DNA of 64,000 nucleotides. It comes from Verrucomicrobiia bacterium. Lineage in GTDB: Bacteria > Verrucomicrobiota > Verrucomicrobiia > Limisphaerales > DSYF01. Both the position numbers and the translations under genes were made by a program. Each line of letters starts with the position of its first letter. Position 1 is the first letter of the stretch. Location of the stretch: contig DASTWL010000034.1 in NCBI GenBank assembly GCA_035765895.1, forward strand, positions 62,001 to 126,000, given 5' to 3'. Positions 1,038-8,201 of this stretch are shown here, one piece after another. The notes under the pieces were generated by a model. The model searched no databases. It had not been told where the DNA came from and saw only the letters and a list, made by a program, of their open reading frames with translations.

Positions 1038-2216
1038 TCACTTGCTCAGCTTCCCCGTAAACCGCTTCAGCCGCACCATCGCTTCCTTGATGTTGTCCAG
1101 GCTGGTCGCATAGGCGCAACGGATGAAGCCTTCACCGCAATCGCCGAAGGCGGTGCCGGGGACGGCCGCCACCTTTTCCTCGTGCAGGAGCTTCAACGCA
1201 AAGTCCTTCGACTTGAGCCCGAACTTTGCCACGCTTGGAAACGCGTAGAACGCGCCAAGCGGTCGATGGCATTCGAGCCCCATGTCGGCGAAGGCGGACG
1301 CGATAAAATTTCGCCGCCGGCGATACTCGTCCGTCATGGTCGCCACATCCTTCGTGCGGGCGAGCGCTTCGACGGCGGCCTTCTGGGCGAGCGACGAGGC
1401 GCAGAGCATCGTGTATTGATGCACCTTCATCATCGCTTCGATCAATTCCGCCGGCCCCGCGGCGTAACCGAGCCGGTAGCCCGTCATGGCCCACGCCTTT
1501 GAAAAGCCGTGCAGGAAAATCGTGCGGTCCTTCATGCCGGGCAAACTCACGATGCTGACGTGCGGTGTGTCGTAAGTCAGTTCGGCGTAGATTTCGTCCG
1601 TAATGACAATGAGGTCGCGTTCACGCGCAAATGCCGCGATGTCCTCCAAGTCCTGCCGGCTCATGATCGCGCCGGTCGGGTTGTTGGGGAAATTCAGCAT
1701 CAACAGCTTGGTCTTCGGCGTGCATTTCGCCTCCAACATCGCACGTGTCAGGCGGAAACCGTTCTCGGCACTCGTCTCCACCGCGAGTGGTGTGCCGCCC
1801 GCAAAGAGAATCGTCGCACGATACGAGACATAGCACGGCTCGTGGTAAAGCACTTCGTCGCCCGGATTGATGAGTGCGCGCAAGGCGAGATCGAGCGCCT
1901 CGCTGACACCGACCGTGACGAGGACTTCGTTGTCCGGGTTGTATTCCGCGCCGAAGTGCTTCGCGACGTATTTGGACAGCGCCCGGCGCAGTTCGATGTA
2001 GCCGAGGTTGCTGGAGTAATGCGTCGCGCCGCGTTCGAGCGCGAAGACGGTGGCTTCCCGGACATGCCAGGGCGTGTCGAAGTCGGGCTCGCCAATGCCC
2101 AGGCTGATCACGTCCTTCATCGTCGTGACGATGTCGAAGAAGTCGCGGATGCCGGAGCGCGGGATGTCGCGCACCACGGTGTTGATGCGATTACGGAGCG
2201 ACACTGAGGCGTTCAT
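1038..2216 (-). CDS. PLP-dependent aminotransferase, class I/II
   Basis: Fold-type I aminotransferase of 392 residues, the normal length for the family. Key features are NNPTG near residues 178-182, the DEIY motif near 207-210, the Schiff-base lysine in HGFSKAW (Lys about 240) and the downstream Arg in GYRLGY. It probably transfers the amino group of an aromatic or aliphatic amino acid to 2-oxoglutarate; the substrate cannot be read from the sequence. The start overlaps the end of the Lrp/AsnC-type gene by 26 bp. That suggests co-transcription, and an Lrp-family protein beside an aminotransferase commonly senses the same amino acid. Confidence 0.93.
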   Translation of the reverse strand: MNASVSLRNRINTVVRDIPRSGIRDFFDIVTTMKDVISLGIGEPDFDTPWHVREATVFALERGATHYSSNLGYIELRRALSKYVAKHFGAEYNPDNEVLVTVGVSEALDLALRALINPGDEVLYHEPCYVSYRATILFAGGTPLAVETSAENGFRLTRAMLEAKCTPKTKLLMLNFPNNPTGAIMSRQDLEDIAAFARERDLIVITDEIYAELTYDTPHVSIVSLPGMKDRTIFLHGFSKAWAMTGYRLGYAAGPAELIEAMMKVHQYTMLCASSLAQKAAVEALARTKDVATMTDEYRRRRNFIASAFADMGLECHRPLGAFYAFPSVAKFGLKSKDFALKLLHEEKVAAVPGTAFGDCGEGFIRCAYATSLDNIKEAMVRLKRFTGKLSK

Positions 2217-2670
2217 CGGAGGTTTCCTGATGCATGAGCACGCCGAGCCGCTTGTAGGTCTTCAGCATGAAATGGGTGGAGGTGGACAGCACGCCTTCGA
2301 GCGGCGACAGCTTCTCGCTCACGAACGCCGCGACCTGGCGCAGGTTCTTGCCCTCGACGAACAACAACAAATCGTAGGCGCCGCTCATGAGATACGCAGA
2401 ACGCACCTCGGGGAACTTGCTGATGCGGTCCGCGATGGTGTTAAACCCGCCTTCGCGCTGGGGCGTAACCCTCACTTCGATGACGGCGGTGACGGTGTCG
2501 AGGTCGAGCTTGTCCTCGTCGAGGATGGCCTGATAACCGCGAATGACACCCTGCTTCTCGTAGGCGGCGATGCGGGCGTTCACTTCGGCGGCGGGGAGGT
2601 TCAACATCCGCGCGATGTTCTCGCGCGATTCGAGCGCATTGGCTCCGAGAATTTTCAGCAGTTCATCCAT
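2191..2670 (-). CDS. Lrp/AsnC family transcriptional regulator
   Basis: Protein of 159 residues with an N-terminal winged helix (MDELLKILGANALESRENIA, then an AAYEKQGVIRGY wing) and a C-terminal RAM/AsnC ligand-binding domain (ISKFPEVRSAYLMSGAYDLL). The ATG at 2670 is chosen over an in-frame TTG at 2682 because a GAGGA Shine-Dalgarno sequence lies 6 nt upstream of the ATG. The gene overlaps the aminotransferase start, so the two form an operon. By family analogy it binds DNA as a dimer or octamer and responds to an amino acid, probably controlling the downstream aminotransferase. Confidence 0.9.
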   Translation of the reverse strand: MDELLKILGANALESRENIARMLNLPAAEVNARIAAYEKQGVIRGYQAILDEDKLDLDTVTAVIEVRVTPQREGGFNTIADRISKFPEVRSAYLMSGAYDLLLFVEGKNLRQVAAFVSEKLSPLEGVLSTSTHFMLKTYKRLGVLMHQETSDERLSVAP

Positions 2671-3300
2671 AAAAGTCCTCAAGTGAGGGCGGCGAAACTA
2701 ACGAGCGGGCGCGAACTTGGCGAGAAAGAACAGAGCAGCTTCGACGCGAATTAGCACGAATTCAAATGCGCTGAGCCGGACAGCGTGGGCGCGATTCGGA
2801 GTTCCCCTCCTTGGAGGGGTTAGGGGTGGGTTTGGCCACCGAGGTGCGTGCCGCACGAGCAAACGTTCATGCAGGAAGAATGGGATTTGCAGGATGCCTG
2901 CGAAGCCAAACCAAAAGCCCCAGCGGGGCGAAATGTGAATAGCCCGGGGCGAGGCCGCGAAGCGGACGCTGCCCCGGGTTTGCGTCCCCAAAAAAATTCC
3001 CTCCCCGCTCCATGTCCTTCGCTCGAGGGAGCGGGACTTGAGCTGCTTGGGATGCGGCGAAATGAATTTGCCAGCGGCAAAGGCCCGCAGGGCCGAACGA
3101 GCGGCGCGAGTGAGTCACTAGGTGTCCGCAGGCCGGATGAGGGTTGTCGGGCAAAGACACTTTAGTTGGGAGGGGAGAGGGTCAGGGTGAGGTGAGGGCG
3201 GCTTTAACAAATACCCACGCTTGCGCTGAACTCCGTTCTCCTTAATCTGCGGGCGCTAGATCAAACCAGAGACGACCAGAACATCATTTAACTAAAATTA
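2671..3300. repeat. Intergenic mosaic; left arm of a composite inverted repeat
   Basis: About 600 bp without a convincing gene; the short reading frames here have repeat-derived composition. It contains CCCCTCC-TT-GGAGGGG at 2804-2819, a segment at 2901-2948, a second GC hairpin near 3003-3038 and a block at 3169-3193. Each has an inverted counterpart in the same mirrored order at 8232-8476. The 3169-3193 block is an exact reverse complement of 8232-8256 (25/25), and 2801-2832 matches 8445-8476 at 30 of 32 positions. These look like members of a dispersed palindromic intergenic repeat family. The last part (3194-3300) is AT-richer, with a -10-like TAAAAT at 3293-3298. Confidence 0.75.
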
Positions 3301-3306
3301 TTTTGC

Positions 3307-3534
3307 GCAGCTTCGGCTGCTGTCCGCATCGAAACCTAGGAAATTTCGCAACAGAGGACAGCGATCGTCGGGCGCCCCATTGGGGCGCACTGGCATCGCT
3401 CCTCTGTGGGCCCTCCTAGGTGCCTGATGCGGGGCGTGTTAGTGTCGCCCCCTTCTATTTCAGGCACCGGAGTTCCCACGGAGGACAGTTCCGTCAGACA
3501 GCACTGATTCGCGCGCGAGCGAATCCCTGTCTGC
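3307..3534 (+). ncRNA. Candidate structured RNA or leader upstream of the methyltransferase genes
   Basis: This 228-bp stretch is almost entirely self-complementary. Stems are: GCAGC-TTCG-GCTGC at 3307-3320; a long arm of ACAGAGG (3351-3357) with CCTCTGT (3401-3407), AGCGAT (3360-3365) with ATCGCT (3395-3400) and GCGCCCC-ATT-GGGGCGC (3372-3388); GGTGCCTGA (3419-3427) with TCAGGCACC (3460-3468) enclosing GGGGCG/CGCCCC; ACGGA/TCCGT at 3478-3494; and CAGACAG (3495-3501) with CTGTCTG (3527-3533) stacked on GATTCGC/GCGAATC. CCTAGG at 3335 could alternatively pair with 3415-3420, so two states are possible. A -10-like TAAAAT ends 9 nt before the first stem. No known family was recognised. The plus orientation follows the TTCG loop and the downstream gene. 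Confidence 0.55.
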
Positions 3535-4206
3535 ATGGCGAGTTCCATCGTTTCCAAGCAAAGAGTCTCCGACCACGGCGAGGTGTTGACCGGCACACGC
3601 GAGGTCAACGCCATGCTTGATTTGGTCAAGCAGGAGACGGAACGGATTGAATCCCGGTTTCTCGAACCCGCCTGCGGCAACGGCAATTTTCTCGCGGAGA
3701 TTTTGGAGCGGAAGTTGCGCGTCGTTGAAGCCCGCTACGCCAGAAGCCAGTTGGACTACGAGCGCAAGGCGGTGCTGGCCGTTACCTCCATCTACGGCAT
3801 AGACATTCTGGAGGACAACGTCATCCAATGTCGCGCCCGGCTTTTCGCCATCTTCGACGGGCGATACACCGCACGTTTCAAGAAGTCGGCCAGGGATGAA
3901 TGTCGCGACGCGGTCAAATACATCCTTGAGCGGAACATTATTCACGGCGACGCACTGTCGCTGAGGATGGTTGGCCCGGCGAATTACCCGATCATCTTTT
4001 CCGAGTGGTCTGCGCCCTTCGACAACAGCCTGCTCAAGCGGCGGGACTACACGTTCTCTGAATTGCTTCAGGACGCTGAAGGTAAGCAGCCGAACCTGTT
4101 CATCACCGAAGAATACTCTGACTTGGGCCACCGGGCTTTCATCCCCAAGGAACTGACCAGCTACCCGCCCATCCACTTCCTCAAGGTGCGTGAACATGAG
4201 AAATAG
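3535..4206 (+). CDS. DNA methyltransferase-like subunit M (first of two), no NPPY motif
   Basis: Protein of 223 residues resembling the small restriction subunit M proteins that begin with a DHGEV motif. It has a clear SAM-binding motif I (EPACGNGNF, residues 44-52) and an acidic motif II region (YGIDILEDN near 86-94). Where NPPY/DPPY would be expected it reads IIFSEWS, so it probably does not methylate alone and may pair with the next protein. The start is placed at the ATG at 3535, which fits homologue N-termini. There is no Shine-Dalgarno sequence: the bases before the ATG form the last hairpin of the folded leader, so initiation may be controlled or leader-dependent. It overlaps the next gene by 11 bp. 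Confidence 0.8.
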   Translation: MASSIVSKQRVSDHGEVLTGTREVNAMLDLVKQETERIESRFLEPACGNGNFLAEILERKLRVVEARYARSQLDYERKAVLAVTSIYGIDILEDNVIQCRARLFAIFDGRYTARFKKSARDECRDAVKYILERNIIHGDALSLRMVGPANYPIIFSEWSAPFDNSLLKRRDYTFSELLQDAEGKQPNLFITEEYSDLGHRAFIPKELTSYPPIHFLKVREHEK

Positions 4207-5695
4207 CGGCTACAATCCCGATGTCCTGAGTTGCCTCGCGAACTTAAGCAGCGACGAAGTTTTTACACCGCCACAACTGGCCAATGACATCTTGGACCAG
4301 CTTCCGCCGGAACTTTGGTGCGACAAAAATACTCGCTTTCTGGATCCGTTTTGCAAATCAGGCGTGTTCCTGCGTGAGATCACCAAGCGGCTGCTCGTGG
4401 GATTGGAGAAGCAGATTCCGGATCAACAAAAGCGGCTCAATCACATTCTCCAGAATCAAGTTTTCGGCATCGCCATTACAGAATTGACCGCGCTGCTGTC
4501 CCGCCGCTCGGTCTACTGCTCCAAGACTGCAAACGGGAAGTATTCCGTTTGCGATTCGTTTGATGACAAGGCGGGCAACATCCGGTTCAAGCCCGGGGAA
4601 CACACTTGGAATAACGGTCGTTGTGATTATTGCGGCGCCAGCAAAGACGCCTACGACCGCGGCGGTGAACTCGAAGTCCACGCTTACGAATTTATCCACA
4701 CCGAAAAGCCGGAGAAGATTTTTGATATGAAATTTGATGTCGTGATTGGCAACCCGCCATACCAGTTAAGCGATGAAGGAGCAGGGGCAAGCGCGTCCCC
4801 AATTTACCATCTGTTTGTAGAGCAGGCGAAAAAACTTAATCCGCGTTTTTTGTCGATGATTATCCCGGCTCGCTGGTATGCCGGCGGCAAAGGCTTGGAC
4901 GACTTTCGAGCAGCAATGCTCGCGGATAGACGAATTTCACGCTTGGTTGATTATCCAGTAGCATCTGATGTCTTTCCTGGGGTCAAACTAAATGGTGGAG
5001 TGTGCTATTTCCTATGGGAGCGCGACTGGGCTGGTGATTGCCAGATCACGACGAGGATGAGTGGGGCCGAGGATTCCATGGTGAGAAGCTTGGGGCAATT
5101 CGACATTTTCGTCCGCTTTAACAAGGGCATATCCATCCTTCAAAAGGTTTTAGCGAAAAATTATGCCAGTCTTAGCGAGCAGGTCTTGTCCAGAAAGCCA
5201 TTTGGGCTGGATACACAGCAGCGGCCATCCAGCAAAGGTGATGTAACGCTCTATGCAAACAAGAGCGTTGGAAAAATTGACAAAGCTGCCATTCCTCAAT
5301 CCAAGGAAATAATCGGGAAATGGAAGGTTCTGCTCTCAATGGCCTACGGCGAAGGCGGGGAAGCACGCGAATATCCCAGGATGATCATTGGCCGTCCAAT
5401 CGTTGCGGCTCCCCCAAGCGCTTGCACTGAAACATACATAGTTGCCGGAGCGTATAGCTCGAGAATCGAAGCAGAAAACTTGGCCAGCTTTCTGAGAACG
5501 AAGTTCGTGCGCTTGCTGATCGCTCTTCGGAAGAATACTCAGCACATTACAAAAGACCGTTTCGCCTTCGTGCCTTCGCTCCCCATGACGAAGGAATGGA
5601 CGGACAAAACTCTCTGGGCGCATTTCGGACTTGCGGAAGAGGAGGTTGCCTTCATTGAGTCCATCGTTCGTCCAATGGAGGTGGACGATGAATAA
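4196..5695 (+). CDS. Eco57I-like N6-adenine DNA methyltransferase subunit (NPPYQL type)
   Basis: Protein of 499 residues. The catalytic motif IV NPPYQ is at residues 186-190, preceded by FDVVIG, as in Eco57I-type adenine methyltransferases. The motif I position reads DPFCKSG (50-56) in place of a normal DPxxGxG, while the preceding small subunit has an intact motif I, so the pair may act as one split enzyme. An insertion with C108, C119 and CDYC at 143-146 looks like a zinc-binding knuckle. The rest (SMIIPARWYAGGKGL, VKLNGGVCYFLW) is typical of the target-recognition part of this family. The ATG at 4196 is preferred over the GTG at 4190 because AAGG lies 9 nt upstream. It overlaps the next gene by 8 bp. 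Confidence 0.85.
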   Translation: MRNSGYNPDVLSCLANLSSDEVFTPPQLANDILDQLPPELWCDKNTRFLDPFCKSGVFLREITKRLLVGLEKQIPDQQKRLNHILQNQVFGIAITELTALLSRRSVYCSKTANGKYSVCDSFDDKAGNIRFKPGEHTWNNGRCDYCGASKDAYDRGGELEVHAYEFIHTEKPEKIFDMKFDVVIGNPPYQLSDEGAGASASPIYHLFVEQAKKLNPRFLSMIIPARWYAGGKGLDDFRAAMLADRRISRLVDYPVASDVFPGVKLNGGVCYFLWERDWAGDCQITTRMSGAEDSMVRSLGQFDIFVRFNKGISILQKVLAKNYASLSEQVLSRKPFGLDTQQRPSSKGDVTLYANKSVGKIDKAAIPQSKEIIGKWKVLLSMAYGEGGEAREYPRMIIGRPIVAAPPSACTETYIVAGAYSSRIEAENLASFLRTKFVRLLIALRKNTQHITKDRFAFVPSLPMTKEWTDKTLWAHFGLAEEEVAFIESIVRPMEVDDE

Positions 5696-8201
5696 TGAGT
5701 TTTTTCCACCGCGTCCCACATCGCGCCCCACCATCTACGCCTACGAGGACAGCAATCCTGAACTCAAGGGATTGTTAAAGGTCGGTTACACCACCAAGAC
5801 AGCGCAAGAACGTGTCGCTGCTCAATACCCCACACTCCGGCCCGGAAGATTGCCGTATCGGATTCTGGTCGAGGAGCCGGCGATGCGTGGGGACGGCACC
5901 GTGTTCATGGACCATGACGTCCACCGCTATCTGCGGATGACAGGAATCAGGAACGAGGGCGGCGAGTGGTTCAAATGCACGCCGGCAGAGGTTGTAGCCG
6001 CCATCGTTGCCGTGCGGAACGGCATGTTGGATGGCGAGAATCGCAGCCTCGATTTCCAGATGCGGCCAGAGCAAGCCGATGCAGTTGAGAAAACCGCTGC
6101 CTTTTTCAAGCGCTCCAAAAAGGAAGACCCGAAAAAGACGCCGCACTTCCTCTGGAACGCGAAAATGCGGTTCGGCAAAACCTTCGCCGCGTATCAGCTC
6201 GCCAGGAAGATGGGCTGGCGCAGAATCCTCGTGCTGACCTTCAAGCCAGCCGTGCAAAGCGCCTGGGAGGAGGACTTGAAGTGCCACGTTGATTTCAAAG
6301 GCTGGCAATTCATTTCGCCGGGCGGTTTGTCATACGAAGACGCCGACAGGAAAAAGCCGTTCGTCTGCTTCGGCTCGTTCCAGGATTACCTCGGCAGAAA
6401 CCCCAGCACCGGTGGCATCAAAACCAAGAACGAGTGGGTCCACGCGACGCATTGGGACTGCATCATCCTCGACGAGTATCACTACGGTGCCTGGCGGGAG
6501 AGCGCCAAAGATTTGTTCGAGGCGGAAGATGCGCGGGAACTGGAGTTCGCCGAGAGCAAGGACATGGAGAGGTTTGATGAGGCTGAGATGCCCATCACCA
6601 CGAACGCCTACCTGTATCTTTCCGGCACTCCGTTCCGCGCCATCGCGTCCGGTGAATTCATTGAGGAGCAGATCTTCAACTGGACGTATTCGGACGAGCA
6701 GCGCGCCAAGCTGAATTGGAAGGGTGCGGACAATCCCTATGCCGCGCTGCCGCGCATGGTGCTGTTGACCTACCAATTGCCGGATGCGATTCGGGAGATC
6801 GCGTTGCAAGGCGAGTTCAACGAGTTCGACTTGAATGTCTTCTTCTCCGCCGAGGGCCTTGGAGGCGAAGCGAAGTTCAAATTCGCGAATGAAGTTCAGA
6901 AGTGGTTGGACCTGATTCGCGGCGCGTTCATGGCAACGACCGTGGATAATCTGAAGCTTGGCGCGCAAAAGCCGCCGATGCCTTTTTCCGACGCGCGCCT
7001 GCTGAACATCCTGTCACACACGCTCTGGTTCCTGCCGAGCGTCGCTTCGTGCCATGCGATGCGCAATCTGCTCACGAAACGGCAAAACAAATTTTACCAC
7101 GATTACAAAGTCGTCGTTGCCGCCGGCAGCGCGGCGGGAATTGGCGTTGACGCACTTCCGCCGGTGCTGGAGGCGATGGATGAGCCGCTGAACTCAAAGA
7201 CCATAACGCTCTCGTGCGGCAAGTTGACGACGGGTGTAACCGTCCGACCGTGGACGGGAATCCTGATGCTGCGCAACTCGTCCAGCCCCGAGACATATTT
7301 CCAGGCCGCGTTCCGCGTTCAGTCGCCGTGGACGGTCAAGAATTCCGACGGCCAGTCGCCCAACGAGGAACAAATCATCAAAGAGGAATGTTACGTCTTC
7401 GACTTTGCGCCGGATCGAGCGTTGCGCCAAATCGCTGATTACGGTTGCCGGTTGAACGTGAACGAATCCAACCCGGAAAAGAAGGTTGAGGAGTTCATCC
7501 GGTTTCTGCCGGTGCTCGCCTACGACGGCAGTTCCATGAAGCAGATAGACGCGGCGGGCATCCTGGACATGGCCATGAGCGGCACGACAGCGACGCTGCT
7601 CGCGCGCCGGTGGGAAAGTGCATTACTGGTGAACGTTGATAACGAAACGCTCCAACGCTTGATGAGCAACAAGGCCGCGATGGATGCGCTCATGAGCATC
7701 GAGGGGTTCCGCGCGTTGAATCAGGACATCGAGACCATCATCAACAAGTCAGAGGCAGTGAAAAAAGCCCGGCGTGAAGCGAATGACGAAGAGTTGACGC
7801 CGAAGCAGAAAAAGGAACTGACGGAGGCGGAGAAAGAATACAAGAGCAAGCGGAAGCAGATTCAGGAAAAACTCATCAAGTTCGCCACGCGCGTGCCGGT
7901 GTTTATGTATTTGACCGATTACCGTGAGCGATGCCTGAAAGATGTTATCACGCAGCTTGAGCCCGGCTTGTTCAAGAAGGTGACGGCGCTGTCGATCAAA
8001 GATTTTGAATTGCTGGTCAGTCTCGGTGTGTTCAATAGCGCGCTGATGAACGACGCCGTTTACAAATTTAAGCGATACGAAGATGCGAGCCTGAGCTACA
8101 CGGGAATCAACAAGCATGGCGAAAACGATGTCGGCCTCTTCGATACCGTAATTACCGCCAAGGAATTTGGGGCCGCTGTTGTCAATCAGTCTGCGGTTTA
8201 A
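5688..8201 (+). CDS. GIY-YIG-like nuclease fused to SF2 helicase (restriction-type)
   Basis: Protein of 837 residues. The N-terminal 100 or so residues look like a T5orf172/MUG113-type GIY-YIG domain: TIYAY (15-19), KVGYT (31-35), a following Arg (42), and GGEWF (91-95) supplying the usual Glu. The rest is a superfamily 2 translocase: QMRPEQADAV Q-motif-like segment, Walker A variant AKMRFGKTF (158-166), DEYH box (262-265), SGTPFR motif III, and a C-terminal RecA-like lobe with SCGKLTTGVTV and FRVQSPW. A lysine-rich coiled-coil stretch follows near 690-740. The start is the ATG at 5688 with GGAGG 6 nt upstream. Overlap with both methyltransferase genes implies one restriction-modification operon in which this is the cleaving subunit. 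This role is inferred. Confidence 0.82.
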   Translation: MNNEFFPPRPTSRPTIYAYEDSNPELKGLLKVGYTTKTAQERVAAQYPTLRPGRLPYRILVEEPAMRGDGTVFMDHDVHRYLRMTGIRNEGGEWFKCTPAEVVAAIVAVRNGMLDGENRSLDFQMRPEQADAVEKTAAFFKRSKKEDPKKTPHFLWNAKMRFGKTFAAYQLARKMGWRRILVLTFKPAVQSAWEEDLKCHVDFKGWQFISPGGLSYEDADRKKPFVCFGSFQDYLGRNPSTGGIKTKNEWVHATHWDCIILDEYHYGAWRESAKDLFEAEDARELEFAESKDMERFDEAEMPITTNAYLYLSGTPFRAIASGEFIEEQIFNWTYSDEQRAKLNWKGADNPYAALPRMVLLTYQLPDAIREIALQGEFNEFDLNVFFSAEGLGGEAKFKFANEVQKWLDLIRGAFMATTVDNLKLGAQKPPMPFSDARLLNILSHTLWFLPSVASCHAMRNLLTKRQNKFYHDYKVVVAAGSAAGIGVDALPPVLEAMDEPLNSKTITLSCGKLTTGVTVRPWTGILMLRNSSSPETYFQAAFRVQSPWTVKNSDGQSPNEEQIIKEECYVFDFAPDRALRQIADYGCRLNVNESNPEKKVEEFIRFLPVLAYDGSSMKQIDAAGILDMAMSGTTATLLARRWESALLVNVDNETLQRLMSNKAAMDALMSIEGFRALNQDIETIINKSEAVKKARREANDEELTPKQKKELTEAEKEYKSKRKQIQEKLIKFATRVPVFMYLTDYRERCLKDVITQLEPGLFKKVTALSIKDFELLVSLGVFNSALMNDAVYKFKRYEDASLSYTGINKHGENDVGLFDTVITAKEFGAAVVNQSAV

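Follow-up and report, generated by a model that had tools for sequence, protein, structure and literature searches.

A kissing-loop RNA family of Verrucomicrobiota, one branch of which precedes many unrelated restriction-modification systems and suggests a shared RNA switch for defence genes

Restriction-modification (R-M) systems are usually seen as controlled singly, each through C proteins, methyltransferases or promoters of its own, and both C-protein control and methyltransferase-operator control depend on DNA-binding proteins that are specific to one R-M system. RNA domains that combine kissing loops with terminator platforms are known from the purine and cobalamin riboswitch classes. 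Among defence genes, a phage protein binds the 5' UTR of the Lactococcus gene abiD1, whose leader yields a short terminated transcript, and a structured RNA lies directly 5' of the defence gene in type III toxin-antitoxin systems and in the case of the AbiF RNAs (PMC12373285).

The locus considered here lies in a 64,000-nucleotide stretch of DNA from a Verrucomicrobiia bacterium (contig DASTWL010000034.1 of assembly GCA_035765895.1, positions 62,001 to 126,000), which as a whole is called the window. A densely folded element separates an R-M operon of three genes (3535-8201, plus strand) from a gene for an AsnC-type regulator (2191-2682, minus strand); it begins at about 3302, and its core finishes at a T tract at about 3461. 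The surrounding features are:

3280-3301, plus strand: AT-rich, partly conserved stretch directly 5' of the RNA, probable promoter region
3535-4206, plus strand: DNA methyltransferase with an MmeI-type domain, the first gene behind the RNA (Pfam PF20473, E 3.8e-7)
4190-5695, plus strand: Eco57I-type DNA methyltransferase (Pfam PF07669, E 2.2e-37)
5688-8201, plus strand: ResIII helicase with a T5orf172 (GIY-YIG-like) domain (Pfam PF04851, PF10544)

The ResIII/T5orf172 protein is the presumed restriction subunit of the operon, and together with the Eco57I-type methyltransferase it matches a type IIG model. In the AT-rich stretch, to which a promoter function can probably be assigned, the AT content reaches 0.75 in the final 10 nt before the RNA, and a motif aAA..cAT is conserved among 101 copies of the class I form described below; blastn matches to the element begin at about 3287. 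A search for -10 and -35 hexamers upstream of the element gave no clear consensus.

The original prediction had proposed that almost all of positions 3307-3534 folds into RNA-like stems. This fold is far beyond chance, with a minimum free energy of -119.3 kcal/mol compared with -86.8 +/- 4.7 kcal/mol for dinucleotide shuffles (z -6.91; 0 of 200 shuffles), and the borders that it gave are correct within a few bases. The UUCG hairpin (3307-3320), the GC tip, the GGTGCCTGA/TCAGGCACC stem and the hairpin before the ATG at 3535 are all present, and we agree that this ATG lacks a Shine-Dalgarno sequence. A covariance model, as it had called for, was built of the core (R1, window positions 3302-3461) from 39 copies, and compensatory changes were found in them. 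R1 matches the window copy with 150 bits (E 3.3e-39), a copy that sits in the seed alignment, and its E-values are rough as they come from a shortened calibration. The conserved fold consists of the following parts:

3302-3461, plus strand: RNA core with P1, P2, P3, P4, P5, kissing loop and terminator-like hairpin (model R1, 161 positions)
3307-3320, plus strand: P1 hairpin GCAGC-UUCG-GCUGC, strongly conserved in sequence
3323-3331, plus strand: 5' strand of P2, TCCGCATCG, with its partner at 3425-3433
3331-3347, plus strand: P3 hairpin GAAA/TTTC (3331-3334/3344-3347), whose loop CCTAGGAAA (3335-3343) is the first kissing loop
3352-3406, plus strand: P4 arm with the base CAGAGGA/TCCTCTG (3352-3358/3400-3406) and the GC-rich tip GCGCCCC/GGGGCGC
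3408-3425, plus strand: P5 hairpin GGGC/GCCT (3408-3411/3422-3425), whose loop CCTCCTAGGT (3412-3421) is the second kissing loop
3425-3433, plus strand: 3' strand of P2, TGATGCGGG, overlapping the terminator-like stem
3431-3460, plus strand: terminator-like hairpin GGGGCG/CGCCCC (3431-3436/3446-3451), then the T tract CTTCTATTT (3452-3460)

The long-range helix P2 thus encloses the three hairpins P3, P4 and P5, and P3 and P5 kiss via their loops. While the stems of the original prediction exist, over the 5' two thirds the minimum-energy fold of the single sequence departs from the conserved one; the covarying helices P2 (3323-3331/3425-3433) and P4 (3352-3358/3400-3406) are missing from the minimum-energy fold of the whole leader.

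The copies that we collected fall into two classes, 102 in class I and 124 in class II, whose borders were partly set by eye and hand. In the MAFFT alignment A1, which was not fitted to any structure, 91.6% of the cells of the named fold are paired and 165 cells carry double changes, whereas sliding the partner by 1-3 columns leaves 15-30. The corresponding counts are 571 for class I and 778 for class II (101 copies each) versus 40-75 and 74-160 for slid partners, in alignments that are model-fitted and hence lean towards the model. P2 is 95-100% paired in the 39 copies, with 19 further pair types, and 99.9% paired in 101 class I copies, in which all seven pairs of the P4 base show double changes (7/7). 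The loops of P3 and P5 can form at least five contiguous Watson-Crick pairs in 97% of the copies of each class, through about 40 different loop combinations per class; after an exchange of loops among the copies, the figures are 16% and 10%. Since this loop pairing lies outside the covariance model, it provides independent evidence for the fold. The pairing of the two CCTAGG sequences, which the original prediction had offered as an alternative structure, is consequently real, but it is the conserved kiss between P3 and P5. As judged by comparative sequence analysis, both the fold and the kiss are those of a real, covarying RNA.

The final bases of P2 are also part of the terminator-like hairpin. 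Its stem shares at least 2 nt with the 3' strand of P2 in 98 of 98 class I copies and in 97% of the 68 scorable class II copies (median overlap 5 nt and 3 nt, respectively), and in both classes T predominates at most positions of the T tract. This overlap, together with the T tract, amounts to the usual anatomy of an attenuator, with a closing stem P2 that appears to be mutually exclusive with a terminator-like platform; the 3-nt overlap found in many copies may be too little for exclusion. A simple terminator scan did not call the window copy because its loop of 9 nt exceeds the limit of 8, and the T tract of this copy is interrupted by C/A. The loop of the hairpin is conserved (AGTARGT), so that the hairpin may do more than terminate. 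In the window (3437-3445) and its homologues, the conserved versions AGTAAGT and AGTAGGT are unusual for a simple terminator, and the loop is a possible binding site. The P4 tip could pair with the terminator (alignment columns 88-97/150-159) as a candidate antiterminator, but both stems are similar in GC composition, and this pairing, perhaps a by-product, was set aside.

The two classes differ in what follows the T tract. Class II RNAs run from there straight to a gene start, at a median distance of 37 nt. Class I leaders continue with a strand CAGGCAC, the complement of GTGCCTG, and in the window copy this continuation, the strand included, comprises three features:

3461-3468, plus strand: CAGGCACC, competitor for GGTGCCTG (3419-3426), which breaks P5 and P2; class I only
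3475-3485, plus strand: CCCACGGAGGA, second competitor, resembling the 5' strand of P4; class I only
3495-3533, plus strand: terminal hairpin CAGACAG..GATTCGC/GCGAATC..CTGTCTG, which stops one base before the ATG

The sequence CCCACGGAGGA pairs with the 3' strand of P4 and the following GGG (TCCTCTGTGGG, 3400-3410), and it varies together with P4 from copy to copy: its longest complementarity is 6.34 with its own partner versus 4.72 when swapped (maximum 4.94 in 50 swaps). When 63 class I leaders were folded past the T tract, single-strand folding predicted a fall of the mean pairing of P2 from 0.49 to 0.04 and of P4 from 0.65 to 0.31, with the competitor stem reaching a predicted 0.88 in the extended leaders. 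The 9-bp stem of the original prediction and the CCTCTGTGGG/CCCACGGAGG stem are part of a later, alternative fold. The arms of the terminal hairpin likewise fit their own partner better than those of other copies (5.88 versus 5.00, maximum 5.26), and in 78 of 92 class I copies no more than one nucleotide (0-1 nt) lies between the hairpin and the start codon. Shine-Dalgarno-like tetramers occur in 47 of 97 class II copies versus 8 of 92 in class I. In class I leaders such as the window copy, where the terminal hairpin abuts the start codon and a Shine-Dalgarno sequence is missing, translation would start by an unusual route.

Already in the first alignment, the last hairpin of most copies was found to meet the start codon of quite different R-M genes. 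The 94 first genes behind class I leaders fall into 19 clusters, and 85 of them are R-M or defence genes from about a dozen unrelated families, counts that ignore relatedness and rest on annotation of cluster representatives carried over within clusters. These 85 genes encode Mod-type N6/N4 methyltransferases (38), PLD/SNF2 helicases, one of them DrmD/HmaA-like (8), IIG/PglX/DrmMI-like proteins (7), several groups of type I methyltransferases or HsdR-like proteins, MmeI-type proteins (5), C5 methyltransferases (5), proteins of the window type (4), Mrr-type proteins (4), ResIII proteins (3), and methylases of the EcoRI and DUF1156/D12 types. RadC proteins (4) come in addition to these 85; the RadC/UPF0758 genes stand behind class I leaders at loci L075, L123, L158 and L241, hinting that RadC belongs with the defence genes in Verrucomicrobiota. 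No IscB-type RuvC/HNH nuclease is present among the operon genes or the class I first genes. Because class assignment was partly done by eye, we retested the gene association by one mechanical rule, the presence of GGCAC in the 34 nt that follow the core: copies with this sequence precede 74 R-M genes and 7 others, copies without it 14 and 107 (Fisher p 4e-32, relatedness ignored). The genes behind class II copies are diverse (LamG, NHL, Sel1, Ig-like, M23), many of them with signal-peptide-like N-termini, and no common theme pointing to a ligand was found among them.

Two homologues of the window's first gene, with 77% and 84% identity, carry the RNA, whereas homologues with 44-61% identity are found without it. 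Inheritance of the RNA along the phylogeny of the first gene was therefore rejected; the leader is exchanged between systems rather than inherited with one. The same RNA also stands before methyltransferases of the window type in a distant family (L135, 1501-1663), where the terminal hairpin is absent, and in an Opitutus relative (L250, 1631-1793), suggesting that this methyltransferase was coupled to the RNA repeatedly. At another locus (L053, G051:C36), two divergent class I leaders lie back to back, 3.2 kb apart (1499-1663, minus strand; 4907-5068, plus strand), one before a C5 methyltransferase and the other before a member of the Mod-type methyltransferase cluster.

The element was detected by blastn in 33 of 196 genomes of the order, mostly beside other genes than in the window, and matches to the covariance model occur in 105 of 320 genomes of the order and in 49 of 388 genomes of a phylum sample, most copies coming from metagenome-assembled genomes. 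Up to 19 copies are present per genome, followed by 14 and 12, with more candidates scored. An exact-pattern scan of 84,980 species genomes yielded at least 120 loci. Among the matches listed, nearly all fit R1 over its full length and nearly all titles are Verrucomicrobiota (Limisphaerales, Opitutaceae, Puniceicoccales, Lentisphaerae/Victivallales), the isolate Geminisphaera colitermitum TAV2 being one carrier; a few are labelled Planctomycetota or other phyla, which may reflect transfer or mis-binning. Antisense R1 matches of 20-36 bits were discarded as the inverted-repeat shadow of the element. The genome of the window itself contains a second, divergent class II copy (L228, G000:C73:7556-7714; 33 bits) before the gene for a probable secreted protein. 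Up to 12 divergent copies occur in a 1.9-Mb genome of a group of related small genomes (G396; L130, L131, L133, L134, L137, L145, L147); P1 is not conserved among divergent copies, so that those of this group may form a separate subclass. A contig from a viral collection (IMGVR_UViG_3300036878_000079; L349, 2648-2807, plus strand) carries a class I leader with a Mod-type methyltransferase gene and is either phage-borne or mis-sorted.

The Rfam search proposed by the original prediction gave the element no match to any family: with Rfam 15, at the gathering score and at permissive E-values, the window copy and divergent copies returned only tRNAs and chance matches, none of them at the element. 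Plasmid blastn gave no match. The motifs of one paper with 224 candidate RNAs are reportedly mostly in Rfam. No account of this RNA was found in a literature search that covered the subscription literature in part; Verrucomicrobia are not mentioned in two surveys (PMC11109978; PMC8632094), and Lentisphaerae are named once, for another motif, in a further paper (PMC2864571). On the sequence evidence, we regard the core as one copy of a previously uncatalogued Verrucomicrobiota RNA family that is positioned just before gene starts.

In our view, the element probably acts in cis as an RNA leader and governs transcription into the R-M operon, as an attenuator with riboswitch-like anatomy; a covarying multi-helix RNA in a 5' leader, one trait of riboswitch-type attenuators, was found here. 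The nascent RNA would fold compactly, with P2 closing the junction of P3, P4 and P5 and the P3-P5 kiss holding it. As the final bases of P2 are the first bases of the terminator-like hairpin upstream of the T tract, the shared nucleotides would let only one of the two structures form. If the domain is stable, perhaps when bound by a small molecule, an ion, a protein or another RNA, P2 would hold and RNA polymerase would read on; otherwise, the terminator-like hairpin would form and a short RNA of about 155 nt would be released. Comparative sequence analysis shows the fold, the kiss, the competition between strands and the link to the genes, whereas we infer termination, a switch and the direction in which it works, a ligand of any kind and an influence on translation. 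In class I read-through RNA, the two further strands would pair with P5/P2 and with P4 and pull the domain apart into a second fold, and translation would probably be kept low or regulated. The view of the original prediction that the RNA may control expression of the operon fits both its position flush with R-M start codons and its internal terminator-like hairpin. The simplest account of the distribution is that the attenuator serves many genes of the phylum and that its extended class I form was adopted as a common leader of many R-M operons. That the RNA is found before so many unrelated genes speaks in favour of a global signal or a general brake and against a metabolite of one pathway. 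We can only tentatively suggest, and hold for doubtful, that the family is a new class of signal-sensing RNA switch across Verrucomicrobiota, through which one intracellular signal turns on unrelated R-M and defence operons and surface proteins together; as an equally tentative part of that proposal, the signal might be, for example, a nucleotide second messenger or a transcription change during phage infection.

Other explanations each account for less of the data than a cis-acting attenuator. The element could serve mainly in translational control or mRNA processing, the folds and the AUG-flush hairpin setting translation or giving a leaderless-like mRNA, and the GC hairpin with its T tract being no real terminator. 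The hairpin touching the start codon, Shine-Dalgarno-like tetramers in just 8 of 92 class I copies, the terminator scan that does not call the window copy and the conserved loop of the terminator-like hairpin would all fit; yet class II has the same core, hairpin and T tract without the terminal hairpin and with ordinary gene spacing, and the T tract is kept in both classes, so that we deem this unlikely. It is improbable that the core is a separate trans-acting small RNA that ends at the T tract, with the gene placement supplying a promoter and the genes being expressed by leaky read-through. The core is complete without the class I extension and finishes in its terminator-like hairpin, and the many copies per genome would suit such an RNA, but the orientation is constant, the gene start is close, and the class I competitor strands beyond the T tract covary with the core, which makes sense only for a read-through RNA acting in cis.

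The same leader stands before R-M genes of many kinds and its border at the start codon is sharp, so that modules have clearly been exchanged, which would suit a mobile or recombinogenic DNA element (an attC-like folded site, MITE or REP) moving defence genes and folding as DNA. We find this very improbable, given that compensatory changes and covariation in the kissing loop are what an RNA with tertiary structure would show, that class I copies differ (median identity 0.73), that R1 detects no second copy flanking the operon within the window and that the element points in the direction of the gene. A dispersed DNA repeat of the MITE/REP kind, whose copies would be nearly identical and lie in either orientation to the genes, was likewise rejected: median identity is 0.73 in class I and 0.61 in the other class, and 108 of 115 class II copies have a gene start on the same strand within 110 nt downstream. 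The original prediction had named a dispersed repeat unlinked to these genes as the outcome that would speak against it; the element is indeed dispersed and not bound to this operon, yet it is bound to gene starts, and its extended form to R-M genes. We give next to no credence to a role as guide, antitoxin or cofactor, in which the RNA would partner the encoded R-M proteins, an idea that draws on the placement directly 5' of defence genes seen in HEARO/IscB, type III toxin-antitoxin and AbiF. The dedicated partner envisaged by the original prediction is not supported, as the same core precedes R-M genes of about a dozen unrelated families, with RadC, helicases and C5 and N6 methyltransferases among the proteins encoded, and dozens of unrelated class II genes, many of them for secreted proteins; first-gene homologues at 44-61% identity, moreover, lack the RNA. 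A HEARO-like nuclease guide is likewise unsupported, with neither a RuvC/HNH link nor an Rfam HEARO match found. Gene content rules out a HEARO/omega RNA, as methyltransferases and a helicase follow, not an IscB-type nuclease, and a type III toxin-antitoxin system was rejected with no tandem repeats of 34-50 nt (the window element holds no tandem array) and no ToxN-like or AbiF-like gene.

The occurrence of one branch before many unrelated restriction and methylation systems suggests that bacterial defence genes have an RNA switch in common. If this is true, host bacteria subject the defence genes that they acquire, of a dozen unrelated families throughout a phylum, to one common control after transcription initiation, and the timing and manner in which R-M systems are switched on become directly testable with one RNA. 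Independently of this, a well-defined kissing-loop RNA family is added that is abundant in a phylum with little-known regulation and present in a cultured termite symbiont, G. colitermitum TAV2.

Compared with known systems, the element resembles the purine and cobalamin riboswitches in being a compact multi-helix domain with a loop-loop contact 5' of genes, in the overlap of its closing stem with a terminator-like hairpin and in being scattered over many genes of a lineage. It differs from them in sequence, junction and conserved bases, has no Rfam match and only a hypothetical ligand, and one of its branches has post-terminator competitor strands and serves R-M genes. With the HEARO/omega RNA of IscB it shares a length of roughly 200 nt and a course that runs to the start of the next gene, but not the RuvC/HNH nuclease, the Rfam match or the fold. 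Like the RNAs of type III toxin-antitoxin systems and AbiF, it is structured and lies directly before a defence gene; unlike them, it has no tandem repeats, is followed by unrelated proteins and shows no sign of an antitoxin. The abiD1 leader may, by analogy, be a useful functional parallel: there, too, a defence gene has an untranslated leader with a premature transcript, and control is perhaps released by a phage factor, as it might be here, although abiD1 is a single gene, whereas the present RNA family is shared by many unrelated R-M types throughout a phylum. As proposed here, the element would set the timing or level of R-M expression just as C proteins and methyltransferase-operator control do, but it would do so as an RNA common to many systems.
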